Source of the DNA: Anaerolineae bacterium
GTDB lineage: Bacteria > Chloroflexota > Anaerolineae > Aggregatilineales > JAFGMM01
Reading direction: 5' to 3'
Assembly (NCBI GenBank): GCA_016927535.1
Contig: JAFGMM010000019.1
Coordinates: 1-40,365, forward strand
Length of the DNA stretch: 40,365 nt
Position 1 is the stretch's first letter. Each line of letters opens with the position of its first letter. Both the position numbers and the translations under genes were made by a program. Below, in pieces: positions 22,635 through 40,365 of this stretch. The notes beneath the pieces were generated by a model that did not search any database, had not been told where the DNA came from, and was given only the letters and a program-made list of their open reading frames with translations.

Positions 22635-23873
22635 CTACGCGCCGGCGTCGGGGTTGTCCGGCGGCTCCGGCTTGCGCGCGCGCGCGGCGCGGGCCTTGCT
22701 TTGCAGACCGGCGAGGAAGTCGTCGCCGGCGCCTTCGGCTTGGTCGGCGGCCGGGGCCGGTTCGGGTTTCGCCTCCGCCTCGCCCGGTTCGCGCGTCTCG
22801 CGCTCGCGTTTGGCTTTGCTCTGTAGATCGCGGAAAAAGTCGGTGTCGGTGATTTCTTTCACCGACTTCTCTTTCTTCACCATGTCGATCTCGATCTTTA
22901 GTTCCTGCACCTGCTGTTTGAGCTTTTCTTCGCGCGCCTGCACCTCCACCGCCATGTGGCTGAAGATGCGCGCAAGCTGCCCCAATTCGTCGCCGCGCCC
23001 GGCGATATCTTCGAGCAGGTCGGGCGTGAACTTGTCGCCCTTCTCGACGACTTCGCTGGCGTTGGTGAGCTTGCGCAGCGGGTGGGCGATGGTGAGCGCC
23101 ACGACGACCACCACGACGATCAGCACGGGATAGACCACAACCGCCGTGCTGGCGCCGGCATTGACGATGTGGCGCGGCACGTCGGCGATGTTGAGCGGGC
23201 CGGCGTCGATCCAGGCAATGCCGATCATCGTGCCATCGACCAGGGTAATCGGTGTGTATGCGGTGGCCCAAAGACCCTTATCGTCAACGTGGATATCTTC
23301 AATCACCGGCTCGACATCTACATCGTAGAAGCTCTGGTCCTCCGGGGCCTTGACGGTGATCTTCGATTCGAGTCCTTTAAACAGTTCGGCGTAGCGCGCC
23401 GGGTCTTCGTAAGGGGCGCGCAAGGGGCGGGAGACTTCGGCGTCGGCGTCATACCGGTAAGGCATGTTGACGTCGTCGAGTACTTCGAAAGCGTGTTCGG
23501 TCGAGACGGCATAGACCGGCGTCCCGCCTTCGGCGTTGAGGATGGTATGGATGCGAACGTTTTCGTCGGCGCCCCGCGCCAGTCTCAAATACGACCAGAT
23601 GACGTAATGCATGTAGTCGCCGGCTTCGCCGGCGGCCAGGAAGTTGCCGTAGTCCTCGCCGACAAAATATTCGCCCGGCACCAGGAAGGGGAGCAGTTCC
23701 CTGGCGATGTACTCGATATTGTCGCGGTTCTGCGCGACGGCTACTTCGGTGACTCCGTTGTAAGCGGTGGAGAGGGCCAGGACCGCAAAGACCCCCAGCG
23801 CAATCGTGAAGACTGCTACGAAGGTCAGCAACAGTTTCACGCGCAGACTCAACCTGGAAGCAAGACTCGACAT
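22635..23873 (-). CDS. Membrane sensor with HAMP domain, coiled coil and repeated DxFFxxLxxKA motifs; no known output domain
   Basis: A 412-residue protein. A transmembrane helix (about 12-35) precedes an extracytoplasmic sensory region (about 36-240) with LWATAYTPITLVDGTMIGIAWIDAG-type strands seen in Cache-like folds. A second transmembrane helix (AVVVYPVLIVVVVVVALTIA, about 245-265), a HAMP domain (HPLRKLTNASEVVEKGD...RGDELGQLARIF) and a coiled coil (REEKLKQQVQELKIEID) follow. The tail has two copies of one motif: DTDFFRDLQSKAKRER (about 343-358) and DDFLAGLQSKARAAR (about 384-398), separated by an Ala/Pro/Glu-rich stretch. There is no kinase, cyclase or chemotaxis domain. The tail matches that of the Cache-HAMP protein at 32563-34062. 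The ATG at 23873 has GAGGA at 6 bases. Confidence 0.8.
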   Translation of the reverse strand: MSSLASRLSLRVKLLLTFVAVFTIALGVFAVLALSTAYNGVTEVAVAQNRDNIEYIARELLPFLVPGEYFVGEDYGNFLAAGEAGDYMHYVIWSYLRLARGADENVRIHTILNAEGGTPVYAVSTEHAFEVLDDVNMPYRYDADAEVSRPLRAPYEDPARYAELFKGLESKITVKAPEDQSFYDVDVEPVIEDIHVDDKGLWATAYTPITLVDGTMIGIAWIDAGPLNIADVPRHIVNAGASTAVVVYPVLIVVVVVVALTIAHPLRKLTNASEVVEKGDKFTPDLLEDIAGRGDELGQLARIFSHMAVEVQAREEKLKQQVQELKIEIDMVKKEKSVKEITDTDFFRDLQSKAKRERETREPGEAEAKPEPAPAADQAEGAGDDFLAGLQSKARAARARKPEPPDNPDAGA

Positions 23874-25551: not shown

Positions 25552-25763
25552 GATGGCTCCTTGCCTCCAGGATGACATAAGTGTAGCCATGTTACCCCTC
25601 TCCCGTTCAGTGCGCCATACGGCGCCGTTCCGGCTGGTTGGGATGCGTTGTTGAGACGAATCGATCTCGCCTGGAATCTGCTGTAACATTCTGTAGTCTG
25701 CCGTGTCTTCTCCTTACGGAGGCTACCGGCAAGCCGATGCCATCGAATCGAGGCAGCAAACGT

Positions 25764-26372
25764 ATGATGCGAGAACAGCAAACCCGATCTTTTATCCATC
25801 CATCCGCCGATGAAGCGCCGGACGAGGCCGAGATCATGCGGTTGGCGCGCGCCGATCCTGCGCGCTTTGCTCCGATCTACGAGCGCTACTTCCGGCGCAT
25901 CTATGCCTACTGTTGGCGCCGGGTTGACAGTGAGGTGGAGGCGGAGGATTTGACCAGCCAGGTCTTCACCCGTGCGCTGGGCGCGCTCCCCGGCTACCGG
26001 GGCGGGCGCGTGGTGGCGTGGCTCTTTCGGATCGCGCACAACGTAGTCGCCAACCACTACCGCGCGCGCAGCCGCCGCTCCCAGGTCTCGCTTGAGGCGA
26101 TCAGTTTTGATCCGACCGACGACCGGCCAGGGCCGGGGCAGCAGGTGGTTGAAGCGGAAGAATGGCAGGCGCTCCGCGCGCTCGTCGCGGGGCTGCCCGA
26201 CGACCGGCGCGAACTGCTCGCGCTCAAGGTGACTGGCGGGCTGACCGCGAAGGAAATCGGCGAGATAGTGGATAGATCGCCCGGCGCGGTGCGCGTAGAG
26301 CTGCACCGTATTATCAAGGAGCTGCGCGCGCAGCACTGCGCGGTATACGACCGCCCGGAGGGGGAAAGATGA
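25764..26372 (+). CDS. ECF-type RNA polymerase sigma factor
   Basis: A 202-residue sigma-70 family protein with regions 2 and 4 only. Region 2: DPARFAPIYERYFRRIYAYC, VEAEDLTSQVFTRALGALPG and VVAWLFRIAHNVVANHYRAR. Region 4: ALVAGLPDDRRELLALKV, then TAKEIGEIVDRSPGAVRVEL as the helix-turn-helix. The ATG at 25764 has GAGG 10 bases upstream; an earlier in-frame ATG at 25737 lacks a well-spaced site. The next gene overlaps the stop codon as ATGA, so the two are translationally coupled, the usual arrangement of an ECF sigma factor with its anti-sigma factor. A GGAAT...GTC pair near 25672-25698 could be an autoregulated promoter, but its spacer is longer than usual. Confidence 0.9.
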   Translation: MMREQQTRSFIHPSADEAPDEAEIMRLARADPARFAPIYERYFRRIYAYCWRRVDSEVEAEDLTSQVFTRALGALPGYRGGRVVAWLFRIAHNVVANHYRARSRRSQVSLEAISFDPTDDRPGPGQQVVEAEEWQALRALVAGLPDDRRELLALKVTGGLTAKEIGEIVDRSPGAVRVELHRIIKELRAQHCAVYDRPEGER

Positions 26373-28327
26373 GCACGCCCAAATCCGAACCCGAACCCGA
26401 ACTCGAACACGATTACGCACATGGATACGAGGCCGGACTGATCGACCGCTTTATGGACGCTCTGCGCAGCGACCCTCATGCGCCCACCCCGGCCGGCTTG
26501 GCTTCGGAGACCGCCGCCTTCGTGCGCCTGCTGGTGCAGGCCGAAAGCGCTGTACCGCCGTGCGTCCCAGACGTGCCGGCGCGCATCTGGATGCGTGCGC
26601 TCGCAGCGGCGCGGCTGGAGAACGCCTCGAATGGGCACGGCTCACAAGTCGTGCCGGATCGACAGACTATATCCATGGAGGAAGATATGTACATTGCAGA
26701 CACAACCATAACCAGGAAGACAAGCGCCCGCCGCCCGGTGCGGGCATACTCGATTACGCTGCTGGCCGCCGTGGCGGGGGTTGTATTGTTCGGCGCGCTG
26801 CTCCTCTTGACGGGGCGCGGCGTGGTCGGCAGCCTGCCGAACCCCAGCACCGGCGGCGCGGCAGCGCCGGTCACTGCTACACCCACAGCGGTCCCGACAC
26901 CGACGCCAACCCCTGTCTTAGAGCCGGGATACCAGGCGCCGATGTCGGTCTTCGAGTTGGGGCCTCTGGAGGATATCCAGCCTATCGAGATCCGCCAGGT
27001 AGTCCAGGGGACGATTACCGACGAAGCGCCGGTGGCGTCCTATCGCTTCGTCGCCGAGACGGACATCGTGCTGCGGGTTGACGCGACCTCGACGACTTTC
27101 TTGCCGATCAACTACGCGACGACGTACTCGGAAGCCGGTCCGAGCAGCGGCGGCAGTTTCTTGATGGAGCCGGCCGGTTTCATCGTCGCTTTGGGCGCCG
27201 GCGAGGAACTGTATCTGTGGGTATCGAAGGCGGTAGATGGGCCGTCCGGCGACTTTGCCCTGCGTCTCGATGCGCTGCCCGAACCGGTGCATCTCGCTTA
27301 CGGCGAGACGGTCGAGGGCGCCATTACCGGGGATGCGCGGTTCGCGCTGTTCGCCTTCACCGGCGCAGCCGGCGACCGGATTGATATCGTCGTAGACAGC
27401 GGCGGTGTCGTAGATACTCAGATGAGTCTCTTCGCTTCTGTGACGGGGGGACCGCTCACGGTGGACGAGGACAGCGGCGCCGGCTTCGACCCAGAGATTT
27501 TGGATATGCCGCTCTATGCCAGCATGGGATATTACCTCGTGGTCGGCGCGACCAATCCCGGCGAGGCGGGTGCTTTCACCCTGGCGCTCGACGGCGAGGT
27601 GAACGCCTTTGTGGTGCCGACGCCGGTCTTCCCGCCGACGGGCGATATCGACGCCGTGCCGGTGGAAATCGGCAAAACGGTCAAGGGGAGTCTGACCGCC
27701 GACGACCCCGAGGCAACTTACACCTTGACCCTTGAGGAGGCCGGTACGCTGGTTGTGTTCGTTGCCTCGCCCGACTTCATGCCCGGTTTCAGCCACATGC
27801 AGTATGTCGAAGATGCCGGAGGTGGTGGTGGCGGTGGTGGCGGTGGTGGGAGCAGCGACACGGGCGGAGGCGCGCTTGCTCATGGGAGCACCCTCCGGTT
27901 TCTCCCTATTGCCGACGGCGCGCGGGTGTGGCTGACGGTTTCGAGCGACTACAGTGCGCCATCTGAAGGCAGCTTTACGCTCAGTGTACGGCTGCTCGAT
28001 GACGCCGTCCCGGCGGCGCACGGCGAGACGGTCCAGAGCGCGCTTACCGAGATGATGCCGTTCCAGTTGTTCCGGCTCGAGGCCGCCGCCGGCGAAATCG
28101 TCACCGTCGGCGTGGACGGCGGCGACATGCTGGACAGCCGTATCCAACTGCTGGACGCGAATGGTGTGCGGCTGGTCGAAGATGATGACGGCGGTCCCGG
28201 CGCCAACCCGGAGATCAACAAGTTCGTGCTCGCGCAGGATGGCCCGTATTACGTCGTGGTCGAACCACAGCAGGAGGGTGAGTCGGGCGCTTTCGAGATC
28301 ACCGTCTCGGTGGTGAGCGGCGAGTAA
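26369..28327 (+). CDS. Single-TM protein with four PPC-like beta domains; candidate anti-sigma factor of the upstream ECF sigma
   Basis: A 652-residue protein whose ATG overlaps the sigma stop (ATGA) and follows GGAGGGGGAAAG. The N-terminal 115 or so residues are cytosolic, with an acidic PEPELEHD start and an Ala-rich helical region. A transmembrane helix lies at about 127-149 (ITLLAAVAGVVLFGALLLL). A Thr/Pro linker (TATPTAVPTPTPTPV) and an extracytoplasmic part follow, with four related beta units starting VVQGTITDEAP, ETVEGAITGDA, KTVKGSLTADD and ETVQSALTEMM, resembling bacterial pre-peptidase C-terminal domains. A (GGT)n tract encodes 11 consecutive glycines. There is no zinc-binding anti-sigma motif. 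A second in-frame ATG at 26687 has its own GGAGGAAG, so a shorter form may also be made. Confidence 0.72.
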   Translation: MSTPKSEPEPELEHDYAHGYEAGLIDRFMDALRSDPHAPTPAGLASETAAFVRLLVQAESAVPPCVPDVPARIWMRALAAARLENASNGHGSQVVPDRQTISMEEDMYIADTTITRKTSARRPVRAYSITLLAAVAGVVLFGALLLLTGRGVVGSLPNPSTGGAAAPVTATPTAVPTPTPTPVLEPGYQAPMSVFELGPLEDIQPIEIRQVVQGTITDEAPVASYRFVAETDIVLRVDATSTTFLPINYATTYSEAGPSSGGSFLMEPAGFIVALGAGEELYLWVSKAVDGPSGDFALRLDALPEPVHLAYGETVEGAITGDARFALFAFTGAAGDRIDIVVDSGGVVDTQMSLFASVTGGPLTVDEDSGAGFDPEILDMPLYASMGYYLVVGATNPGEAGAFTLALDGEVNAFVVPTPVFPPTGDIDAVPVEIGKTVKGSLTADDPEATYTLTLEEAGTLVVFVASPDFMPGFSHMQYVEDAGGGGGGGGGGGSSDTGGGALAHGSTLRFLPIADGARVWLTVSSDYSAPSEGSFTLSVRLLDDAVPAAHGETVQSALTEMMPFQLFRLEAAAGEIVTVGVDGGDMLDSRIQLLDANGVRLVEDDDGGPGANPEINKFVLAQDGPYYVVVEPQQEGESGAFEITVSVVSGE

Positions 28328-30997: not shown

Positions 30998-32537
30998 CGC
31001 CGCCATCCTTCTCGTCCTTGTGATAAGCTGCGTCCCGGCTACCGCCCAGGATGACGCCTGTGCGGACCTGCGCGCCGGCGGCGGGCCGGCGCTGCGCGCG
31101 ATGGTCGAAATCGCCCAATACCTGCACCAGGCCGCGCAGGTTATGGCAGACGCCGCCGATGATCCGGCTGTGCTAGAGCCGGCGGCGGTGATGCTGTTCA
31201 AGGCGCGCATCGCGGCGAGCGCCGCGCAGCAGGTGATCGGCCCGGAGATGTACCGGCTGGTGCGCGGTGTGCATGAACGGGTCCGAGACTTCGACCCGGC
31301 CACGGACTCGCCGGCGAGCGCGGCGGACGCGGTGCGCGCCGTGCGCGACCGGGTGCACGAGCGCGTGATGGCTTGTTTTGGCGAGGCGGTATCCATCACG
31401 CCATACACCGCGCAGTGGGTCCGGGAGACGGCATCGCTGGCCGGCTGCGGCGACGTGATGCGCGCGGTGGCGTTCGGCGACGGCGGGCGCGTGCTGGCAG
31501 GCGGTGATACCGGCGGCTGCGTGACTCTCTGGGATACGACGACTTGGCAGGTCGTCGGGCGGCTGGAGCACCCCGGCGGCGTCGAGCGCCTCGCCTTTAC
31601 GCCCGACGGGACCTTGCTGGCAAGCGGCGGCGCGGGCGGCGATATCCGGCTGTGGGAGGTGGACGGCGATCTGCGCAGCGCGTGGGCCGGGCACGCCGGG
31701 CGCGTGATCGGGCTGGGGTTCGATGCGGCGGGCGCGGCGCTCATCTCGGCGGGCGCGGACGGCCGGCTGCTCGTGTGGTCGGCGGCGGGCGGGCAGATCA
31801 CCCGGAGCATCGAGATCGACGGGCTGACCGCCGCAGCGGTGCGCGGGGAGGTCGTCGCTGCCGGCGACTTTGGCGGTGCGCTCCACCTGTGGGACCTGGC
31901 GAGCGGCGCGGAACTAGCCGCGCCCGGCGCGCACGAATCGGCGATTTTCAGCTTGGCGCTCGACCCGCAGCGCGCCTTGCTCGCCGCCGGTGATTTCGAC
32001 GGGGTGCGGCTGTGGCAAACCGGCGGTGACGCACCCGGCAAGCTGGACGGGCGCGCCTCGCTGGCGGTGAGCATGGCTTTCAGCCCGGCGGGGGACGTGC
32101 TGGCGGTGGGGACCGCCAGCGCGGTGATGCTGGGGTTCCCGGCTGCGCCGGCCTCAAAAGGCCAACCGGTCAACCTGTACGGGCACGGCGAGGTCGTGAC
32201 CGATGTCGCGTTCAACCCGGACGGTGTGCTGTTGGCCTCGGCCGGCGGCGAGGGCCGGGCGCGGGTGTGGCGGGTGCCGCCGCTCGACCGGCTCATCACC
32301 CAGGCGGAGGTGGTCTGTATGCTCGTCGCGCCTGACTATGTGAACGCGCGCGAAGGGCCGGGCACCGACTTCGCCGTCACGCGCGTGCTCCAGCCCGGCG
32401 CGCGCATCCGGGCCGACGCGCAGACGGTGGGCGAGGACGGCCTGACGTGGTGGCGTCTGACTGAGCGCGGCTACTGGGTGCGCGCCGACGTGGTGGAGGA
32501 GGCCGGCGACTGCGACCAACTGCCGGCGGTTGAATGA
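30990..32537 (+). CDS. Exported WD40-repeat beta-propeller protein with C-terminal SH3b domain
   Basis: A 515-residue protein with a signal peptide (AAILLVLVISCVPATAQ, about 4-20), a helical domain (about 25-140, Ala-rich) and about seven WD40 repeats (about 145-440). Clear repeat ends are GGCVTLWDTTTWQ, GGDIRLWEVDG, DGRLLVWSAAGG, GGALHLWDLASG, FDGVRLWQTGG and EGRARVWRVPP. A C-terminal SH3b domain reads YVNAREGPGTDFAVTRVLQP through RGYWVRADVV (about 448-505). It is probably a periplasmic or surface scaffold for protein contacts. The start is the ATG in the 47-base repeat, without a Shine-Dalgarno. It converges on the Cache-HAMP gene, with a GCCGGC hairpin (32546-32563) in the gap. Confidence 0.85.
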   Translation: MKHAAILLVLVISCVPATAQDDACADLRAGGGPALRAMVEIAQYLHQAAQVMADAADDPAVLEPAAVMLFKARIAASAAQQVIGPEMYRLVRGVHERVRDFDPATDSPASAADAVRAVRDRVHERVMACFGEAVSITPYTAQWVRETASLAGCGDVMRAVAFGDGGRVLAGGDTGGCVTLWDTTTWQVVGRLEHPGGVERLAFTPDGTLLASGGAGGDIRLWEVDGDLRSAWAGHAGRVIGLGFDAAGAALISAGADGRLLVWSAAGGQITRSIEIDGLTAAAVRGEVVAAGDFGGALHLWDLASGAELAAPGAHESAIFSLALDPQRALLAAGDFDGVRLWQTGGDAPGKLDGRASLAVSMAFSPAGDVLAVGTASAVMLGFPAAPASKGQPVNLYGHGEVVTDVAFNPDGVLLASAGGEGRARVWRVPPLDRLITQAEVVCMLVAPDYVNAREGPGTDFAVTRVLQPGARIRADAQTVGEDGLTWWRLTERGYWVRADVVEEAGDCDQLPAVE

Positions 32538-32545
32538 GCGTGAAC

Positions 32546-32563
32546 GCCGGCCGGAAAGCCGGC
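32546..32563. terminator. GC-rich hairpin between convergent genes
   Basis: GCCGGC, loop CGGAAA, GCCGGC form a perfect 6-base stem in the 25-base gap between the WD40 stop (32537) and the Cache-HAMP stop (32563). No T-run follows on either strand, so efficiency as a terminator is uncertain. Confidence 0.4.
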
Positions 32564-34062
32564 TAATCGTCGTCGGGCTGGGGGATTTGTCGGCGGCGTA
32601 TGTTCTCGGCCCTGGTGCGCAGATCGAAGAAGGGGTCGTCTTCGGCGCTGTCGTCGGTGTTTTCGTCCGCCGCATCGTCGCGCACTTTGCTTTTCAACGC
32701 ATCGAAAATGCTGTCCGTGTTCCCGGCGTCGCGTCTGCGGCGCGCATCTACCGCCTTTGCTTTCAAGTCGCGGAAATACTCGGTATCGACGATGCGCGCG
32801 ACTTCGCGCTCCTTTTGCACTTCGTCGATCTCGATGCGCAGTTCCATGACCTGCTGCTTCAAACGTTCCTCGCGCGCTTTGACCTCCTGCGCCATGCGGA
32901 TGAAGACGCGCACCAACTGGCCGATATCGCCGTGTTTGGGTGCGTGCGCTTCGAGACCCACCGCGTCGAACGAGTCGTCGTCGCGTTCCAGGGCTTGCGC
33001 TGCATGGGTGAGGGCGCGCACGGGCCGCGCGATGCTCTGCGCCAGGCTCAGCGCGATCACCGCGACCACCACGCCGACGATGACGACGCTCAACCCGCTC
33101 TGGCGGGCCAGGTTGTTGAGCGGCTCGGCGAATTCGGCCTGTGGCTCGCTGACGACCACGGTCCAGTGTAGCTGGCTCAGCGGCGCGAAACCGCCGATGT
33201 GACGGGTGCCGTCGGTGTTGATATAGCTGGTGTGGTCGGCGTGGGTCGCTTGTAGAACATCCGCCGCGAGGTCGGCCATACCGAGACTCTCGACGCGCCC
33301 GCCCGATAAGGTGAGGCGCTGGACGACGGTAGGAACCTTCTTCGGGGGCAGTGAGACCAGGCTGTGATAATAAAGTTCGGGGTTGGGGTGGCTGACGATC
33401 ACGCCGTCCTGGTCGATTAAGAAAGCGATGCCCTGTTCGCCGATTTGCAGGGTTTTCATGACTTCCTCAACCGCTGCGCCGCCGATTTTAATGGCGGCGA
33501 CGCCGATGGAGTCGCCGTCCGGACCATAGACCGGCGAGGAGAAATACAGCCCCAGTTGGCGCGAGGTGCGCCCGACCAGCACGTCGATGTACTGACCGCC
33601 GGCCATTGCCTGTTGGAAGTATTTGCGGTCTTTCAGGTGCAGGCCCTCGATGCTGCTCAGGTGCTCCAACTGGCGCGACATGACCGCATCGCCGGTGCGG
33701 TCCATCAGATAGACGTATTCGTAGTTGGGGTTAGAGAACAACACGTTATCCAGGGTGAGCGCGGCTGCTTCGTAGGGGACGGCGGTGGGGTTGTCGAGGA
33801 AGCCGATGACGGCCGGCTCGCCGCTGACCTGCTTGGCGACGTGCTGGGTATCGGATAAGAGCTGGTCGAGCCGGCTGGCGATGCTGGACGCCAGCAGCGC
33901 TTTGGTCTCGAATTCGGTGCCTTCGAGGCTATGAAGGCTTACCTGGTTGTTGTAGTAGGCAATCAAGCTCATCGGCACAAGCGCCGCCAACAGCAGCGCG
34001 ACCGAGAGTCGGACGGTCACCGACCAGGCAGGAGGATACAATACCTGTTGCAGTTGTTTCAT
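32563..34062 (-). CDS. dCache-HAMP membrane sensor with coiled coil and three DxFFxxLxxKA-like motifs
   Basis: A 499-residue protein. A first transmembrane helix (about 20-40) and a periplasmic dCache-type domain (about 45-310) come first, with YLMDRTGDAVMSRQ, LKDRKYFQQAMAGGQYIDV and IGVAAIKIGGAAVEEVM. A second helix (LSVVIVGVVVAVIALSLAQSIA, about 320-342), a HAMP domain, and a coiled coil (REERLKQQVMELRIEIDEVQ) follow. The tail has three related motifs: DTEYFRDLKAKAVDAR (about 426-441), DSIFDALKSKVRDD (about 450-463) and DPFFDLRTRAENIR (about 477-490). No enzymatic output domain is present. dCache domains sense small ligands. It shares its C-terminal layout with the HAMP protein at 22635-23873 and lies next to a MinD-like ATPase, a plausible partner. 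A hairpin lies just before the start. Confidence 0.85.
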   Translation of the reverse strand: MKQLQQVLYPPAWSVTVRLSVALLLAALVPMSLIAYYNNQVSLHSLEGTEFETKALLASSIASRLDQLLSDTQHVAKQVSGEPAVIGFLDNPTAVPYEAAALTLDNVLFSNPNYEYVYLMDRTGDAVMSRQLEHLSSIEGLHLKDRKYFQQAMAGGQYIDVLVGRTSRQLGLYFSSPVYGPDGDSIGVAAIKIGGAAVEEVMKTLQIGEQGIAFLIDQDGVIVSHPNPELYYHSLVSLPPKKVPTVVQRLTLSGGRVESLGMADLAADVLQATHADHTSYINTDGTRHIGGFAPLSQLHWTVVVSEPQAEFAEPLNNLARQSGLSVVIVGVVVAVIALSLAQSIARPVRALTHAAQALERDDDSFDAVGLEAHAPKHGDIGQLVRVFIRMAQEVKAREERLKQQVMELRIEIDEVQKEREVARIVDTEYFRDLKAKAVDARRRRDAGNTDSIFDALKSKVRDDAADENTDDSAEDDPFFDLRTRAENIRRRQIPQPDDD

Positions 34063-34070
34063 AACAGCCC

Positions 34071-34085
34071 CCAGGCTGCGCCTGG
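34071..34085 (-). promoter_or_regulatory. Hairpin directly upstream of the Cache-HAMP start codon
   Basis: On the minus strand CCAGGC-GCA-GCCTGG forms a perfect stem, and CAGCC-TGGG-GGCTG is an overlapping alternative that would include the GGGGG ribosome-binding region, 5-6 bases before the ATG at 34062. The two cannot form together, so a translational switch is conceivable. Confidence 0.3.
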
Positions 34086-34112
34086 CAGTTTGTACAAGCT
34101 AGCTTTGTAGTC

Positions 34113-34118
34113 ATTATA
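34113..34118 (-). promoter_or_regulatory. -10 element for the Cache-HAMP gene
   Basis: The minus strand reads TATAAT at 34118-34113, about 50 bases before the ATG at 34062. The -35 region is weak. A 10-base palindrome AAGCTAGCTT (34097-34106) lies around the expected transcription start and could be an operator. Confidence 0.45.
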
Positions 34119-34206
34119 CCTGAAAGTGTTTTCGGGATATTGTGGCTGTGTTCACAAAAAGGGCGCCTAAGATCGCTGCGCGTGGTTGTTTTCAGAAGGA
34201 AGCGAA

Positions 34207-34232
34207 CATGGACCGGGGCGAGCCGGTCCATG
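34207..34232. terminator. Perfect hairpin downstream of the MinD-like gene
   Basis: CATGGACCGG and CCGGTCCATG form a perfect 10-base stem with a 6-base loop, about 25 bases after the stop codon of the minus-strand MinD-like gene. On that strand it is followed by a moderately T-rich TTCGCTTCCTTCTG, so it may be a weak terminator separating this gene from the Cache-HAMP gene. Confidence 0.5.
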
Positions 34233-34257
34233 CGCTGCGGCAGAAAGAACAAGCCGT

Positions 34258-35031
34258 CTAGGCCATCAGCCGGGCGGCGATCTGCCGGTATTTCTCGGTC
34301 ATCGTGTTGTCGGGATAACGGAAGACGAAGACGCCCGAACTCGCCAGCATCATCATCTCGTCGGAATGCGGCAGTACGGCGGCGACTTCGCAAGCATATT
34401 TGTCTTCAACCGTGGCCTTGACTTGGTTGAAATCGTAGACCGTAGGGGTTTTATTGACCACAAGCATCATACGCGGCACGTCGAGCTTGCGCGCCACCTC
34501 GACCGTGACGCTGGTGCCCTGGATGTCCTGCTGGTCCGGGCGCATGATGATCGCCAGCGCATCCGAGATGGCGATGGAGAGCAGAGTTTCCTCGTTCAGG
34601 CCGGGGTGAGTATCGATCATCAAGACGTCCAGGTCCAGCGCTTCGATCAGGCTGTGGAAGCCATCGTTAAGCAACCCCACGTCGTAGCCTTCGCGCAGCA
34701 CGCGCGCGATCTCGCCGGCCTTGACGCTGGAGGGGACAAGCAACAACTGCCCCGGGGGAACCGTGGGGCCGGCGCTGCTTTCGTTGATAAAGGCGGTCAC
34801 ATCGTGCGCCGCATCCGCGATATCGCATTTGCCCCACAAGTAATCGTTGAGTGTGGCGCCCATGGTGTCTTCGCTGATGCCAAATAGGACGTGGATGCCG
34901 GGCGATTGAATGTCGGTGTCAACCATGCCGACCTTCAACCCTTCGGCGGCCAGGACCGTGGAGACGTTCGCGGTTGTGTTCGACTTGCCGGTTCCGCCTC
35001 GGAAAGAGTGGACGGAAATAATATGGGCCAT
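34258..35031 (-). CDS. MinD/ParA-family ATPase with deviant Walker A motif
   Basis: A 257-residue cytosolic P-loop ATPase. The Walker A motif reads SFRGGTGKSN (about 9-18): the catalytic-side Lys of GK is present, but the signature lysine that opens the deviant motif (KGGxGK) is Arg. Further landmarks are VDTDIQSPG (switch I region), VLMIDTHPGLNEE (Walker B/switch II) and LVVNKTP. The C-terminus (MTEKYRQIAARLMA) forms a helix that could be amphipathic, as in MinD. Such ATPases position proteins on membranes or nucleoid by cycling between dimer and monomer. No parB or minC gene adjoins; the neighbours are HAMP, cyclic-nucleotide and ECF proteins. GGAGGAAG precedes the ATG, and a promoter with a 23-base palindrome lies upstream. 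Confidence 0.85.
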   Translation of the reverse strand: MAHIISVHSFRGGTGKSNTTANVSTVLAAEGLKVGMVDTDIQSPGIHVLFGISEDTMGATLNDYLWGKCDIADAAHDVTAFINESSAGPTVPPGQLLLVPSSVKAGEIARVLREGYDVGLLNDGFHSLIEALDLDVLMIDTHPGLNEETLLSIAISDALAIIMRPDQQDIQGTSVTVEVARKLDVPRMMLVVNKTPTVYDFNQVKATVEDKYACEVAAVLPHSDEMMMLASSGVFVFRYPDNTMTEKYRQIAARLMA

Positions 35032-35073
35032 GACTTCCTCCCCCGGATGTTTTGGTAAAGTCTGGGCAGTTGG

Positions 35074-35096
35074 ATTGGTAAACCAGGTTAACCAAT
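35074..35096. promoter_or_regulatory. 23-base palindrome, candidate operator of the MinD-like gene
   Basis: ATTGGTAAACC and GGTTAACCAAT flank a single A; the arms match at 10 of 11 positions. The site lies just downstream of the predicted minus-strand promoter (35108-35136), where a bound repressor would block transcription. The regulator is unknown. Confidence 0.5.
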
Positions 35097-35107
35097 ACTA
35101 CTTTATA

Positions 35108-35136
35108 ATTTTAGCACTGACCAGGTATTACTTCAA
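35108..35136 (-). promoter_or_regulatory. Predicted sigma-70 promoter of the MinD-like gene
   Basis: On the minus strand TTGAAG (35136-35131) and TAAAAT (35113-35108) have an optimal 17-base spacer. The start would be near 35101, with a leader of about 70 bases containing the 23-base palindrome and GGAGGAAG before the ATG at 35031. Confidence 0.6.
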
Positions 35137-35489
35137 AAAGTGCAAGGTTCTTTGGAAATTCGCGGGGTTTTCGGGCGAGCCGCCCAAGATATGACGTCAA
35201 ACCTTCGTTCACCCCGCGAATTCCTGAAGACCCAAGTGCAAGGGGCGCGGGGCGAACGAGAATTCGCTCCCGTATTTTGGGCATTCCGGCGGCTCGCTCC
35301 GAAAACTCCGCAAGTTCTTTCTTTAAGGAACTGAGTGTAAAAGCACGGCAAACGACGGACCTTGTGTTTTAGCCGCGATAGTGCAACAATCGGAGCGCCG
35401 CGCGGAGCCGGCGCGAGCCGGGCCGCCTGGAGGAAAAACGACGCACTTTGGGGCGAACCTGCGACTTAACCTGTAAAGGTGCATGATTG
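35137..35489. other. Gene-free gap with a complex nested palindromic element
   Basis: No protein gene is seen between the MinD-like promoter and the ECF start. Bases 35139-35335 hold several inverted repeats: AATTCGCGGGG (35157-35167) with CCCCGCGAATT (35212-35222); TCGTTCACCCCGCG (35205-35218) with CGCGGGGCGAACGA (35246-35259), 13 of 14 matching; GCGAATTC (35216-35223) with GAATTCGC (35260-35267); and an outer pair around TTTTCGGGCGAGCCGCC and GGCGGCTCGCTCCGAAAA. Some pairings exclude each other. The rest (35345-35480) is GC-rich with short inverted repeats. It could be a structured RNA, a leader of the sigma gene or a small palindromic mobile element. Confidence 0.6.
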
Positions 35490-36017
35490 ATGGGGCAAAA
35501 TGTCAGCGACGGCGCTCTGGTCCGGCGCGCCCAAGATGGCGACCGGGAAGCTTTCCGAGCATTGTACGACCGCTACTTTGATAAGGTGTATAACCGGGTA
35601 AAAGCCAAAGTCCCGATCCAGGAGGTCGAGGATGTCACCCAAGAGATTTTTATCGCGGTAGCGCGTTCGCTCCCGCGCTTCGAGCACCGCGCGAAGTTCA
35701 ACACCTGGCTGTATACCATCGTGAGCCGGCAGATCGCAGATTTCTATCGCCGGTATTACCGGCGCGACGAAGTGAGTGTCGAAAGTGATGAAGAGGGGCC
35801 GGTCGTCAATTTCAACGATGCGCAGATTGACAACAGCGTGATTCTCCAGCGCGCGCTGCTCAGCCTGCCGGCCCATTACCAAGAAATCATCCTGCTGCGT
35901 TTCGCTGATGGACTCCCTTTTGCTGAGATCGCCAGGGTGCAGGGCAAATCGCTGGAGGCGGTTAAATCGCTTTATCGGCGTGCTATCGAGGCCATCCGAG
36001 AGAAAGTAGGGCAGTAG
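35490..36017 (+). CDS. ECF-type RNA polymerase sigma factor
   Basis: A 175-residue sigma factor with region 2 (DGDREAFRALYDRYFDKVYN, VEDVTQEIFIAVARSLPRF, KFNTWLYTIVSRQIADFYRR) and region 4 (SLPAHYQEIILLRFADGLPF then AEIARVQGKSLEAVKSLYRR). The ATG at 35490 has AAAGGTG about 9 bases upstream; a TTG one codon earlier is less likely. Three bases separate its stop from the next gene, which encodes a small protein with two membrane helices in the usual position of an anti-sigma factor. A PrsW-type protease follows, the class that in Bacillus subtilis makes the first cut in the anti-sigma factor RsiW. The stress sensed is unknown. Confidence 0.92.
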   Translation: MGQNVSDGALVRRAQDGDREAFRALYDRYFDKVYNRVKAKVPIQEVEDVTQEIFIAVARSLPRFEHRAKFNTWLYTIVSRQIADFYRRYYRRDEVSVESDEEGPVVNFNDAQIDNSVILQRALLSLPAHYQEIILLRFADGLPFAEIARVQGKSLEAVKSLYRRAIEAIREKVGQ

Positions 36018-36020
36018 GAT

Positions 36021-36476
36021 ATGAATCGTCATAATGATCTAGATGACAAACTCGCGGCGATTACAGATGTGATTTTGGAGGGCAAAGCGATGTCCCTCGA
36101 TTCAGATGTTTCAGATATCGAGATGCAGGGCCTTACCGAGGTTGTGCACGGCCTCTACGAACTGATTGCCCCCGACGTGCCCGCTGACCCGGCCTTCCGT
36201 GCCCGCCTGGACCGCCGCCTAGACCGGGAATGGAACGCCCTGCACCGGCGGCGTGTGCTGCGCTGGCACCAACGGCCTGTCTTCCGCCTGGCGGCGCTGG
36301 CGGCGGCGCTGGTTGTGGCGGTGGTGGGGCTGGCATTGGTCGCGGGCGGTGAAAGCGCGGGCATGACCGGCACTGCCACCGGCCCGCTCTCGCCGGATGC
36401 GCTGCTGCTCGCCGGCATCGTGGGACTGGTCGTCGCGGCGGCGGCGCTCTTCTGGTATATGCGGCGGCGGCGCTAA
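36021..36476 (+). CDS. Small two-TM protein, candidate anti-sigma factor
   Basis: A 151-residue protein with a cytosolic acidic, helical N-terminal part (about 1-75: LDDKLAAITDVILEGKAMSL, VVHGLYELIAPDVPADPAF), a basic segment (RLDRRLDREWNALHRRR) and two hydrophobic helices (about 90-108, LAALAAALVVAVVGLALVAG; about 122-145, ALLLAGIVGLVVAAAALFWY), ending RRRR. No zinc-binding HxxxCxxC motif is present. Position right after the ECF sigma factor (3-base gap) and the cytosolic helical domain fit an anti-sigma factor, and the following PrsW-like protease would be its natural processing enzyme. This function is inferred from context, not from recognised homology. Confidence 0.7.
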   Translation: MNRHNDLDDKLAAITDVILEGKAMSLDSDVSDIEMQGLTEVVHGLYELIAPDVPADPAFRARLDRRLDREWNALHRRRVLRWHQRPVFRLAALAAALVVAVVGLALVAGGESAGMTGTATGPLSPDALLLAGIVGLVVAAAALFWYMRRRR

Positions 36477-36493
36477 AATCTTAAGAATCAATG

Positions 36494-36522
36494 TTGCATC
36501 TAGCCCTTTATTCATTGATAAT
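36494..36522 (+). promoter_or_regulatory. Predicted sigma-70 promoter for the PrsW-cNBD gene
   Basis: TTGCAT (36494-36499) and GATAAT (36517-36522) are 17 bases apart, in the 126-base gap after the two-TM protein. Transcription would start near 36529, giving a leader of about 75 bases. This would allow the protease gene to be expressed independently of the sigma factor. Confidence 0.5.
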
Positions 36523-36602
36523 ATAGGTGACGCGCGCTCACATTATGCCTCTGCCAACGCCAGGCGCGCTGCACATTCGAATGTGCTCGGGTGAAGGCTT
36601 GT

Positions 36603-38378
36603 ATGAGTAATACCCTTACGCTGGTTGTTTCATATGTTATTGCGATAGCGATCCCGCTGAGCGCGGTCTGGCTGGTCTGGGCGCTCGATATTTTCAAGAC
36701 AACCCGCATCCGCACCATTGTTATTGCTTTCCTCTGGGGCGCGACCGGCGCTATCGGCCTCGCTTACGTCGTCAACAATGCGCTGATCCGCAACGTGGGC
36801 CTGGGGTTTACCCAGCTTAGCAACTTCGTTGCGCCCATCGTCGAAGAGATCTTTAAGGCGCTGGTGCTCATCTACCTCATCCGCCATCCCAGTTTCCGCT
36901 ACTTTGTCGATGGCGCCGTGTACGGCTTTGCCGCCGGGATCGGCTTCGCCATGTCGGAGAACCTTTTCCTTTATCTGCCCGGCGCCGGCAGCGCCGTGTT
37001 GATCGGTTCGATCAGCCGTGTCCTCTCGGCGTCGCTGATGCACGCCGGCGCCAGCGCCCTGGTCGGTATTGCGCTGGGGCGGCTGCGCCGCGCCGAGCGC
37101 GGCAGGGTGGGTTGGCCGGCGGCCGGCATCCTGTTCGCCATCGTCCTCCACGTCGTGTATAACAATGTGGTCAACACGCCCGGCTTGCAAGGGGTGATGC
37201 TGCTGGTCATCGCTATTGGGATGGGGCTGGGTGCGGCGATGGCGACGAGTTTTCTCATCAACCAGGGGCTTGGCGAGGAGAAACAGCGTTTCCGGGAGGC
37301 GTTGGGCGTTACGGCCGGCGTCTCGACCGGCGAGCGTAAGGCCGTGCAGCGGCTCGGTGGTTCGGGCGCCGAGGCGATTCTCGATTCGCTGCGCGAGCAG
37401 TTCGGCGACGAGACGGCTATGCTCATCCGAAAGATGCTCGCCAAGCAAGGCAACATCGGCATCTTGAAGGGCAATCTCAGTGTGCCGGTCAGCCCCCGGC
37501 TGCGCCAGGCATGGGAGCGCGAGATTGCGCAGTTGGAGCAGGAGGTCGGCGCGATTCGGAGCCGGCTGGGGCCGATTGTCAAGCAGTTCATCCAGGAGAT
37601 GTTTCCGCCTGAAGATGACGCGCTCTGGGACCGGCTGGACGCCGAACTGGGCGAGCACGACAAGACCCTGGTGCACACCTTTGACCTGTTTATGCGCGTC
37701 ACCGAACTGGCGCAGAGCTTCACGCCCGAACAGCTTGAGAACCTGGCCGAACGCCTCAGCAAGATTGAGATTTTCAAGCACGTCTCGCTGGCGAATCTAG
37801 AAAACCTTTCGCGTGCCATCACCATGGCCCGGTTTGCCGACGGCGCGGTTATTTTCAACAAGGGCGACGCGGGCGATGCGATGTACATGATCGAATCCGG
37901 CTACATCGACATTTATGCCCAGGATTACACCGGCGCAGAGAAGCTGCTGCGCACCTTTCGCCCTGGCGACGTGGTGGGTGAGTTTTCGCTGCTCGACGGC
38001 CAGCCGCGCTCGGCCAGCGCGCACGCCCGGCGCAGTCTCATGGTGCTGGCGCTCCACCGTCAGGCGTTTAACATGTTCATTTCCAGCCGCCCCCAAGTCA
38101 TCTTTGCCATGCTCCAGTATCTCTCGGAGAAGGTGCGCTACACCACTACCGCCGTACAGACCGCCCTGGACTCGGCGCGCCGGATCGCCGAAGGTAACTA
38201 CGAAGAGATGCCGGAGTTTGCGCAGGCGCTGCCGGAGCCGGAGGAAACCGAACTCCTGGAGCCGGAGGCGCTGTCTGAAGACACGCCGAAGGTGGTAGGC
38301 GGGATGTTCGCCCGCCTCACGGAGATACTCGAACAGCGCGAGCGCACACCGAAAGACCGGCTCGATTATATTGAGTAA
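36603..38378 (+). CDS. PrsW-family intramembrane metalloprotease fused to a cyclic-nucleotide-binding domain
   Basis: A 591-residue protein. Residues 1-222 form a membrane domain of about seven helices with all PrsW motifs: VEEIFK (Glu81, Glu82, Lys85), DGAVYGFAAGIGFAMSEN (103-120), His147 in SLMHAGASALVG and His183/Asn187 in LHVVYNN. These would bind zinc and cut within the membrane. Residues 225-385 are helical and cytosolic. A cyclic-nucleotide-binding domain follows (about 388-515) with the phosphate cassette GEFSLLDGQPRSASA, keeping the Glu460 and Arg469 needed to hold the cyclic phosphate. The tail (530-591) is acidic. The ATG at 36603 has GAAGG at 6 bases; a GTG four codons earlier is an alternative. 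It follows an ECF sigma factor and candidate anti-sigma factor, so ligand-gated cleavage of the anti-sigma factor is a natural reading. Confidence 0.88.
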   Translation: MSNTLTLVVSYVIAIAIPLSAVWLVWALDIFKTTRIRTIVIAFLWGATGAIGLAYVVNNALIRNVGLGFTQLSNFVAPIVEEIFKALVLIYLIRHPSFRYFVDGAVYGFAAGIGFAMSENLFLYLPGAGSAVLIGSISRVLSASLMHAGASALVGIALGRLRRAERGRVGWPAAGILFAIVLHVVYNNVVNTPGLQGVMLLVIAIGMGLGAAMATSFLINQGLGEEKQRFREALGVTAGVSTGERKAVQRLGGSGAEAILDSLREQFGDETAMLIRKMLAKQGNIGILKGNLSVPVSPRLRQAWEREIAQLEQEVGAIRSRLGPIVKQFIQEMFPPEDDALWDRLDAELGEHDKTLVHTFDLFMRVTELAQSFTPEQLENLAERLSKIEIFKHVSLANLENLSRAITMARFADGAVIFNKGDAGDAMYMIESGYIDIYAQDYTGAEKLLRTFRPGDVVGEFSLLDGQPRSASAHARRSLMVLALHRQAFNMFISSRPQVIFAMLQYLSEKVRYTTTAVQTALDSARRIAEGNYEEMPEFAQALPEPEETELLEPEALSEDTPKVVGGMFARLTEILEQRERTPKDRLDYIE

Positions 38379-38385
38379 AGCGTGT

Positions 38386-39015
38386 ATGGCAGAAGAAAGA
38401 ACCGCTGTCGCCGAACTGCTGAGTCAATCTGACGTTTCGATCTTTAAAGGCATCGATCCGCCGACTTTGCAGCCGCTCGTCGATAAGATGGAATTGCAGG
38501 TCTACCAAGACGGCGAGCTGATTTTTAACATCGGCGACGCGGGCGACGCGATGTACCTGGTGGAGACCGGGCGCGTCCGAGTCTACCTACCCGACGAACA
38601 GGGCAACGAGTTGATTACCTTTCGCCACTATAACCCGGCGCAGACCGTCGGCGAGTTGGGGCTGCTCGATACCCGGCCACGCTCGGCCACCGCCGCCGCC
38701 GAGAGCGACGCGCCCGGCGCGTCCGTCCGGGTCTACAAGCTGAAGCGTGACGATTTTATCGCTTTCCTGGAGGAAAGCCCGGCTGTCGGGCTTGCCATGA
38801 TGCGCGACCTGACCAGCCGGATACGCTATACTACGCAGTTTCTCGAAAGGCTCATGGATTCGATCAACTGGCTGCTGGCCGGCGATTATGAACGCGCGCT
38901 CCAAGATGTGGCGGTGACCAGCGCCGACAGTGAGATTCAGAATCTGATCGTGGCCTGTCTTCAGATGATTCGCAGCGTCCAGGATCGCGCAATGCCTGGC
39001 CCACCGGGGCGTTAA
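38386..39015 (+). CDS. Stand-alone cyclic-nucleotide-binding protein without a DNA-binding domain
   Basis: A 209-residue cytosolic protein. A CRP-type cyclic-nucleotide-binding domain spans about 15-140: ISDVSIFKGIDPPTLQPL-like entry helix, GDAGDAMYLVETGRVRVYLP, and the phosphate cassette TVGELGLLDTRPRSATA with the key Glu and Arg. The C-terminal 70 residues are helical (RYTTQFLERLMDSINWLLAG) with no helix-turn-helix, so it is not a CRP-like transcription factor. GDAGDAMY and RPRSA also occur in the preceding PrsW fusion, suggesting duplication of the domain. The ATG at 38386 is 7 bases after the stop of that gene, probably in the same operon. It may act as a regulatory subunit or ligand buffer. 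Confidence 0.85.
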   Translation: MAEERTAVAELLSQSDVSIFKGIDPPTLQPLVDKMELQVYQDGELIFNIGDAGDAMYLVETGRVRVYLPDEQGNELITFRHYNPAQTVGELGLLDTRPRSATAAAESDAPGASVRVYKLKRDDFIAFLEESPAVGLAMMRDLTSRIRYTTQFLERLMDSINWLLAGDYERALQDVAVTSADSEIQNLIVACLQMIRSVQDRAMPGPPGR

Positions 39016-39278
39016 AGATTGGAAAATAGCGCAGTTTATTAGAGCTTCAACCGGATTTTAATTTAGGTCTCGTTGTATTTTTACTATAATCATTTAACGA
39101 GGGGCCGTTAATGCACTGCTTCCGCGCACCCAGATCGTCATAGCCACACAGTCGGTCTAAGATGACAGACAACAACCCCTTTGGGCGCAAATGAGCGACC
39201 AAACTGTCGAACGACATCGCTGTCGAAAAGCAAGACAAGTTGAGTGACAAACGTTTAGTAAAGAAAGGAGTGTCTGCT
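39016..39278. other. 263-base gap with a -10-like element
   Basis: Between the cyclic-nucleotide-binding protein and the next gene, TATAAT occurs at 39085-39090 without a good -35. AAGGAG at 39265-39270 is the ribosome-binding site of the following gene. No small gene or strong hairpin is evident. Confidence 0.4.
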
Positions 39279-39884
39279 GTGAATCGTAGAGAAATCTTTT
39301 GGTTGGTCGGAGGATTGGTGATTGGCCTGATCGTGGGCGTCGCCGTCACTTCGCTGGCCGGCGATGTGCCGCCGCTGGGCGGTACGGCTGCCAAAGCGCC
39401 GGCCGTAACGTATTACCTGGCAAAGATGTCCGACGTATCGTCTTGGTTGACCGAGCAGTACAGCGATTCCGCCGACCTGAGCAGCCGGCTTTCCAGCGCG
39501 GCGGTGACCGTGCAGGGTCTCGTCGATACCGAGTTCGATGTTCAGGACGATTTCAAGAACGTCCGTGGCGATATCGACGCCATGTTGGTGGGGGTATACG
39601 GCGCGCTGACCGGTGCGAAGGCCACCGAGGAAGATGTCGAGACCGTGGCCGCCGGCACGGACGAGGTGGTCGGCCCGCAGGACAACCAGGTCTCGGTTTG
39701 CCTTGCTCTCGATGACAACCCGTACAGCCTGGAAGGCCCGTCCGTCTACCTGTACGTCGCGGTGCCCGACTCCAAACGCGCCGAAGTCGAGAGCAATATC
39801 CCCGGCGGTTGGGAGGCAAGCGCCGAGCCGAAGAACGCCGACTTGTTCTGGCTGCTGCTGAGTTGCTATGCTCAGGAAGAATAG
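39279..39884 (+). CDS. Membrane-anchored extracytoplasmic protein of unknown function
   Basis: A 201-residue protein starting with GTG at 39279, preceded by AAGGAG at 8 bases; a TTG 13 codons earlier is also open but has no site. One membrane helix at about 6-27 (FWLVGGLVIGLIVGVAVTSL) anchors a soluble domain of about 170 residues. The first half looks helical (MSDVSSWLTEQYSDSADLSS, DFKNVRGDIDAMLVGVYGAL), the second beta-rich (VSVCLALDDNPY, VYLYVAVPDSKRAEVESN). I recognise no family. It lies between the cyclic-nucleotide block and a calcium-binding-type repeat protein, so a cell-envelope role is likely. Confidence 0.65.
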   Translation: MNRREIFWLVGGLVIGLIVGVAVTSLAGDVPPLGGTAAKAPAVTYYLAKMSDVSSWLTEQYSDSADLSSRLSSAAVTVQGLVDTEFDVQDDFKNVRGDIDAMLVGVYGALTGAKATEEDVETVAAGTDEVVGPQDNQVSVCLALDDNPYSLEGPSVYLYVAVPDSKRAEVESNIPGGWEASAEPKNADLFWLLLSCYAQEE

Positions 39885-39952
39885 CTTTCTTTTCACCGAT
39901 TGGCCCGGCGTCGCTAGGGTTGTGGCGTAGCGTAGTTTAAGGAGGTAACCGG

Positions 39953-40006
39953 TTGGACCTATCTGTACTCGAAACCCGTTCCTGTTTTTATTCGTCTTTA
40001 CCATAA
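39953..40006 (+). CDS. Possible 17-residue leader peptide
   Basis: TTAAGGAGGTAACC (39937-39950) is an almost ideal Shine-Dalgarno, yet the next gene starts far downstream at 40022 with its own TAGGAG. The strong site is 7 bases before a TTG codon at 39953 that opens a 17-codon frame (LDLSVLETRSCFYSSLP) ending in TAA at 40004-40006. It could be a translated leader that influences the downstream gene, or an unused site. Confidence 0.3.
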   Translation: MDLSVLETRSCFYSSLP

Positions 40007-40021
40007 TTAGGAGACCTGAAT

Positions 40022-40365
40022 ATGCTTAAGAGAGTGAATCCGCAAACCATCGCGGTTATCGTTATCGGGCTTCTCGTCCTGGTCGTCGGCGTTCTCATTC
40101 TGTCCGGCGGCTCACTGGGAAGCTTGATCGGTACTGCGGTTGACTCGGACGGCGATGGCGTCACTGACGACCAAGACGCCTGTCCGAATTATCCAAACGA
40201 TGGGGTCGGTGATCCGTGCGTTGATGATTGTCCCGACGGCTCCGGCAAGGACGGTCAGGGCGATCCGTGCAACCACAGCGATTGTCCCGACGGTTCCGGC
40301 ATGGATGGTCAGGGCGATCCGTGCAACCACAGCGATTGTCCCGACGGTTCCGGCATGGACGGTCA
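40022..40365 (+). CDS. Membrane-anchored thrombospondin type 3 repeat protein, 5' part
   Basis: The ATG at 40022 (TAGGAG about 7 bases upstream) opens a frame that runs off the window after 114 codons. A transmembrane helix spans about residues 10-30 (TIAVIVIGLLVLVVGVLILS). From residue 41 come Asp/Gly-rich calcium-binding-type repeats: DSDGDGVTDDQDACPNYPND, then CPDGSGKDGQGDPCNHSD and CPDGSGMDGQGDPCNHSD. From 40231 on the DNA repeats with an exact 54-base period (18 residues), and the third unit is cut by the window end. Such thrombospondin type 3-like arrays bind calcium and form rigid rods on cell surfaces. The number of repeats and any C-terminal domain are unknown. Confidence 0.8.
   Translation, partial: MLKRVNPQTIAVIVIGLLVLVVGVLILSGGSLGSLIGTAVDSDGDGVTDDQDACPNYPNDGVGDPCVDDCPDGSGKDGQGDPCNHSDCPDGSGMDGQGDPCNHSDCPDGSGMDG
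40231..40365 (+). repeat. 54-base tandem repeat inside the thrombospondin type 3-like gene
   Basis: Units start at 40231, 40285 and 40339 with TCCCGACGG and are nearly identical, differing at a few positions (for example GGCAAGGAC against GGCATGGAT). Each encodes one 18-residue repeat, so unit gain or loss keeps the frame. Confidence 0.85.

Follow-up and report, generated by a model that had tools for sequence, protein, structure and literature searches.

The window analysed here is a contig of 40,365 nucleotides from a Chloroflexota metagenome-assembled genome (MAG), Anaerolineae bacterium (GenBank JAFGMM010000019.1). It carries a cluster of four genes on the forward strand encoding an extracytoplasmic function (ECF) sigma factor, a small protein with two transmembrane (TM) helices (the 2-TM protein), a PrsW protease fused to a cyclic nucleoside monophosphate-binding (cNMP) domain, and a second cNMP-binding protein. 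This gene order had been read from the sequence in an initial annotation and was recovered as open reading frames (ORFs) with matching Pfam domains (Table 1). Conservation of the neighbourhood together with repeated fusion lends good support to the view that PrsW in this subfamily is functionally linked to cNMP domains and to ECF sigma factors. The best explanation of this link, which we hold with moderate confidence, is that PrsW would be a cyclic-nucleotide-controlled site-1 protease acting on the 2-TM protein as anti-sigma factor.

Contigs of relatives were scanned with peptide patterns taken from the PrsW part alone, and sigma and cyclase neighbours were thus not selected for; confirmation and ranking of the relatives used the full-length fusion, which carries some bias toward cNMP neighbours. 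Profiles of the neighbouring genes were built on the first 10-14 loci and then applied to all, and the counts refer to the 60 loci whose upstream sequence reaches 5.7 kb or more. A sigma gene and a 2-TM gene lie upstream of PrsW on the same strand in 33 of these loci, a cNMP domain is fused or adjacent to PrsW in 39, and the sigma pair and cNMP occur together in 30. Class III cyclase genes are present within 7.5 kb in 25 loci and a ParA-like ATPase gene near PrsW in 46. The window genome (5.1 Mb, with 10 cNMP domains) has 13 sigma-70/ECF matches above cut-off, so that the chance of a same-strand ECF gene within 6 kb upstream is about 0.8% per gene; sigma genes would be expected in about 0.5 of the 60 loci, compared with the 33 observed. 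The commonest arrangement is [ParA divergent]-sigma-2-TM-(PD40 propeller protein)-PrsW-cNMP with tail-ParA-(convergent cyclase), where the tail is a C-terminal sequence described below. A sigma-less arrangement (L091, L092, L099, L108 and L114) reads tail receptor-ParA-(small gene)-PrsW-cyclase of 1300-1400 amino acids-cNMP with tail; PrsW is tied to cyclic-nucleotide genes here even without a sigma factor. In L065, L067 and L084 the sigma gene is preceded by the cNMP gene. The cultured relative Longilinea arvoryzae (L078) also has a PrsW of this subfamily; the flank fetched for it contains an upstream gene of the 2-TM family, with no recognised sigma gene immediately adjoining. One relative, L127, has a PrsW of the Chloroflexota subfamily in a record titled Bordetella parapertussis (MAG HRSG-H13-bin-83), an organism name that is probably wrong.

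The protease part of the fusion matches PrsW-protease (PF13367) over residues 40-206 (E=1e-27; 97.4 bits against a cut-off of 23.5). Numbered from the ATG at 36603, its motifs are E81E82xxK85, F115xxxE119, H147 and H183xxxN187, and those of Bacillus subtilis PrsW/YpdC are given in PMC12943098 as E75E76xxK79, F110xxxE114, H138 and H175xxxD/N179. Across 81 homologues (the window and 80 loci from GTDB genomes), E81, E82, K85, E119, H147, H183 and N187 are unchanged in every sequence, and loss of the metal residues was found in none of the relatives. The Glu81-Glu82, His147 and His183 motifs that the initial annotation listed are accordingly present and invariant. Its 'DG..EN at 103-120' needs rewording: the residues exist, but as two distinct motifs, DG at 103-104 and EN at 119-120, both of which are kept except that D103 is E in 10 of the 81 homologues and N120 is another residue in two. 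In the AlphaFold model of the fusion (mean pLDDT 74.6, with the TM core and the cNMP barrel higher, mostly 75-96), a seven-TM PrsW at residues 1-233 (helices 2-28, 36-65, 69-93, 101-124, 134-163, 170-190 and 198-233) is followed by a partly poorly predicted helical linker, the cNMP barrel and a long C-helix. Basic residues sit in loops 1, 3 and 5 and at the C-terminus, from which, by the positive-inside rule, the cNMP domain should lie in the cytoplasm and the N-terminus outside.

The fused domain, which extends over about residues 390-500, matches cNMP_binding (PF00027) at 414-498 (E=3.5e-20). Its phosphate cassette, GEFSLLDGQPRSA, contains Glu460 and Arg469, and sequence and alignment both bear out the earlier description of this cassette as intact; the cassette of the second cNMP protein, GELGLLDTRPRSA, is intact as well. 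The modelled barrel matches structures of CRP, GlxR, PKA and cyclic-nucleotide-gated channels, and barrel and cassette satisfy the CRP-type pattern GE...R[S/T]A. Linked cNMP domains in relatives carry the cassette GE..L.D..PRSA almost throughout, with Glu and Arg nearly always retained; the cassette is lost in L085, and Arg is absent in L105, where the cNMP domain is unlinked. The pairing of a PrsW-cNMP fusion with a second cNMP gene recurs in L054, L055, L058 and L152.

The 2-TM protein consists of a cytoplasmic part of about 85 residues, two TM helices joined by an outer loop of about 13 residues, and a basic C-terminus. Its AlphaFold model (pTM 0.32) has soluble helices at 3-19, 33-49 and 57-82 and TM helices at 86-111 and 125-150. 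The outer loop has a conserved GTA, ATA or similar sequence among 43 relatives, and our guess is that this TA would be the PrsW cut site. Pfam gave no match to the protein, and a profile search of the PDB with the family returned unrelated helical proteins only. The NCBIfam anti-sigma model NF052375 is matched by 22 of the 43 relatives at E<=0.01 (best 1.2e-7), below its cut-off, and by the window protein with 19 bits against a curated cut-off of 100 bits. Class I anti-sigma domains (ASDI), with which 72% of Chloroflexi ECFs are associated, comprise an N-terminal three-helix bundle, a linker and a fourth helix (PMC7406223). Since the NF052375 matches are sub-threshold and the four-helix layout is not apparent, the protein is named only as a candidate anti-sigma factor. 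That it reads an outside signal itself is unlikely, because it has almost no outer domain. In a reciprocal test, the 2-TM profile was run against 150 genomes of the class with E<1e-15 taken as a strong match. Ten strong matches resulted, all 0.1-5 kb upstream of a same-strand PrsW of the subfamily, and the stronger point of the test is that the search of these genomes revealed no strong match at a distance from PrsW. Eight weak matches (1e-5 to 1e-9) are without a clear link, and none of about 100 more distant PrsW genes from these genomes has a 2-TM neighbour.

In the proposed mechanism, the 2-TM protein would tether the ECF sigma factor to the membrane via its N-terminal cytoplasmic part, and PrsW, whose active site would lie in the outer half of the bilayer, would cut the 2-TM protein within or close to its short outer loop. 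A site-2 protease, for which M50 proteins are candidates (three matches above cut-off in the genome), would then release the sigma factor. The cNMP domain of PrsW, aided by the second cNMP protein, would couple the cut to the level of a cyclic nucleotide, and binding could turn the protease either on or off. The nucleotide, most likely cAMP, would come from class III cyclases, whose genes are neighbours of the cluster in relatives and lie at other places in the window genome; that genome has about ten of them, none adjoining the cluster (the contig ends at 40365). The syntenic cyclases of relatives have two catalytic domains, both of which were aligned, and their nearest match is human soluble adenylyl cyclase. 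In L152, from the window's order, a double-cyclase AAA protein is encoded directly before sigma-2TM-PrsW:cNMP-cNMP, and L153, from the same order, repeats the arrangement cyclase-sigma-2TM-PrsW:cNMP up to its contig end. It is this resemblance of the cyclases, together with the position of the L152 gene, that makes cAMP the likely ligand. A more specific proposal, that cytosolic cAMP or cGMP, made by an enzyme of the locus that resembles soluble adenylyl cyclase, would allosterically control PrsW cleavage and ECF sigma release, and that a ParA/MinD-like ATPase would be a further partner in relatives, seems to us evenly poised between right and wrong.

On the 81-row tree, PrsW and cNMP switched between fused and split at least four times, and linkage to sigma changed at least six times. 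In another tree, to which further sequences from the same order were added, the window protein pairs with L155 (93/92), the next to join being L152/L153 (82/86) and L049-L053 (81/84). With L050 and L154 counted as one locus, the sigma pair accompanies 12 of 21 distinct fusions (the window, L033, L049-L053, L057, L061, L064, L152 and L153), and in L056 the contig end cuts off the context. All 12 sigma-linked fusions keep the cassette Arg; Glu is replaced by Asp in L152 and L153.

A C-terminal tail, with the consensus VKxREDxLKQQLEKLxxEIDxARRKQEFEEITxTxFYAxLKEQAxxLR, is common to cNMP proteins and to HAMP, Cache or GAF receptors. It occurs in the window at 32563-34062 (-) and 22635-23873 (-), and in L049-L128. 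ParA/MinD-like ATPases are fused to, or encoded within 300 bp of, 51 of the 85 ORFs with this tail, and the existence of single cNMP-tail-ParA proteins (L104:1285-2808 and L125:6810-8327) suggests that the three parts cooperate. The tail may serve for docking or output in a receptor-ATPase system that is so far undescribed.

Several observations weigh against cyclic-nucleotide control of sigma release by PrsW. The flanks fetched for eight of the 21 fusions (L054, L055, L058, L085 and L155-L158) lack a sigma pair, and one of the eight, L155, is the closest kin of the window protein (54% identity). Four of them, L085 and the same-order paralogues L156-L158, have lost the cassette Arg. Genome G391 has one sigma-linked copy (C57) and two unlinked copies (C22 and C12); the unlinked fusions are therefore at least partly paralogues, and some PrsW-cNMP members probably act on other targets. 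For the 2-TM protein, a fold search of the PDB with its model found nothing, all matches to anti-sigma models are sub-threshold, and eight of the ten genomes with strong matches in the reciprocal test had contributed rows to the profile, the independent ones being G343 and G369. Moreover, the cNMP signal may be directed to the ParA-like ATPase, since the cNMP protein of most relatives has the tail. The initial annotation's suggestion that a cyclic nucleotide gates release of a sigma factor is thus partly supported: the fusion, its neighbourhood and its residues are conserved, cNMP genes go with this PrsW subfamily in fused and split form alike, cyclase genes lie nearby, and no relative has lost metal residues, but the association with a sigma/2-TM pair extends to 12 of the 21 fusions and the cassette Arg is missing from four of those without one. 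As a separate observation, L085, L156, L157 and L158 are diverged fusions without a sigma neighbour in which the Arg is gone and the fusion is retained, and this group is possibly ligand-independent or binds another ligand.

The link to ParA leads to an alternative that we consider unlikely, in which PrsW would cleave the anti-sigma factor on membrane stress, in a Bacillus-like manner, and the cNMP parts would feed a separate ParA module, with no more than the operon in common, or would control localisation or oligomeric state. The presence in most relatives of a cNMP gene whose tail is shared with HAMP/GAF receptors, the closeness of many tails to ParA, the single cNMP-tail-ParA proteins and the loci with sigma downstream of the cNMP gene would all fit such a division. 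However, the repeated independent fusion of cNMP domains to PrsW itself argues against it, as does the window clade, whose fused cNMP domain lacks the tail and in which L049-L055 and L058 showed no ParA gene next to the fusion. A reading that is more doubtful still denies the 2-TM protein the role of substrate, or that of anti-sigma factor; PrsW would cut some other membrane protein (a PD40 protein, for example), and the sigma factor would be controlled otherwise. PD40 beta-propeller genes are frequent between the 2-TM and PrsW genes of relatives, which together with the sigma-less PrsW-cNMP members and the lack of a known anti-sigma fold would speak for this; yet the window has no PD40 gene at that place, the 2-TM gene comes right after the sigma gene in such loci, the NF052375 match is weak but recurrent, and strong 2-TM homologues in the 150 genomes keep to PrsW. 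PrsW stands alone in 10 of the 60 loci, without sigma pair, cNMP or cyclase, but the excess of upstream sigma genes and the repeated fusions make it very improbable that the genes are chance neighbours with no common function, and chance adjacency was rejected on the neighbourhood counts.

Table 1. Genes of the window cluster and its reverse-strand neighbours, with the evidence for each.
Feature	Position	Strand	Evidence
ECF sigma factor, 175 aa	35490..36017	+	Sigma70_r2, r4_2, ECF; TIGR02937 above cut-off
2-TM candidate anti-sigma factor	36021..36476	+	homologue alignment A4 (43 rows); sub-threshold NF052375; AlphaFold model
PrsW-cNMP fusion, 591 aa from ATG 36603	36603..38378	+	PF13367 + PF00027, alignments, model
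Second cNMP-binding protein, 209 aa from ATG 38386	38386..39015	+	PF00027 E=3e-18; cassette
ParA/MinD-like ATPase, 257 aa	34258..35031	-	Pfam AAA_31/ParA/CbiA; PARA profile E=2e-141; divergent from sigma gene
dCache-HAMP receptor	32563..34062	-	dCache_1, HAMP; TAIL profile E=3e-10; adjoins ATPase

The sigma factor has Pfam matches to regions 2 and 4 only (2e-13 to 4e-13). The 2-TM gene starts 3 bp past the sigma stop, and joint translation of the two genes is therefore probable; a gap of 126 bp separates it from the protease ATG, for which an alternative GTG start exists at 36591. The protease stop abuts or overlaps the start of the second cNMP gene, depending on an alternative TTG start at 38371. 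A consensus scan found no terminator-like site on the forward strand within the cluster and one such site in the intergenic region before it, and Rfam gave no match over 32000-40365. The dCache-HAMP receptor possibly, not certainly, belongs to the system. Elsewhere in the window, a second sigma-70/ECF-like gene (25638-26372, +) overlaps by 4 bp a gene (26369-28327, +) for a 652-residue protein with a C-terminal PPC domain, which is perhaps the regulator of this sigma factor. Downstream of the cluster lie genes for a membrane-anchored protein (39240-39884, +) and for a protein with DxDGDGxxDxxDxC-like repeats that is cut by the contig end (40022-40363, +), both without Pfam match.

Upstream of the sigma genes, AAC...CGT/GTC patterns indicative of ECF autoregulation were no more frequent than in shuffled sequences. 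A strongly conserved element, GATTATAGCCTAAC...GAAAGTCAA, present upstream of sigma in about half of the loci, was rejected as an ECF motif, because its opposite strand reads TTGACT-N16/17-TATAAT, a sigma-70-type promoter of the divergent ParA gene. This promoter occurs in the sigma-ParA intergenic region of L033-L046 and related loci; the window yielded no copy of it.

Site-1 cleavage of ECF anti-sigma factors is commonly seen as a response to envelope events, and the signal that activates PrsW is a long-standing question. If PrsW is controlled by a cyclic nucleotide as proposed here, a pathway known for envelope signals would be controlled from inside the cell, and a PrsW with its own cyclic-nucleotide sensor would provide a defined, testable intramembrane-protease switch. 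The fusion would also connect cAMP signalling with ECF sigma factors in Anaerolineae, where both are little studied. The initial annotation knew of no description of this link, and in the open-licence literature no paper combining PrsW with cNMP or cyclic nucleotide-binding was found. A second-messenger domain on PrsW has already been noticed in Leptospira, where the PrsW-PilZ protein LIC_20173 is the nearest precedent (PMC12943098, 2026). It shares with the window protein a C-terminal cytoplasmic nucleotide-second-messenger domain, but this is a non-canonical PilZ domain of c-di-GMP type in place of a CRP-type cNMP domain, and the accessible text does not describe an adjacent sigma/anti-sigma pair (PMC12943098).

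Compared with the B. subtilis PrsW (YpdC)-RsiW-SigW system, the window shares the EExxK, FxxxE, H and HxxxN motifs, an ECF sigma factor beside a membrane protein that would play the part of RsiW, and M50 candidates. It differs in the predicted cytoplasmic cNMP domain of PrsW, in an anti-sigma candidate that spans the membrane twice and has a very short loop outside, and in the position of prsW within the sigma cluster, with cyclase genes nearby in relatives. Like the class I ECF anti-sigma factors RseA, RsiW and RskA, the 2-TM protein has a small N-terminal cytoplasmic helical part and a membrane anchor and is encoded after the sigma factor, whereas it has three predicted soluble helices in place of four, no zinc motif, two TM helices and no fold match. 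The cNMP barrel, the intact cassette and the C-helix, which here would gate an attached module, are shared with CRP, the SthK and MlotiK channels and the mycobacterial Pat acetyltransferase; in contrast to CRP/PKA-type proteins, the gated module here would be an intramembrane protease.

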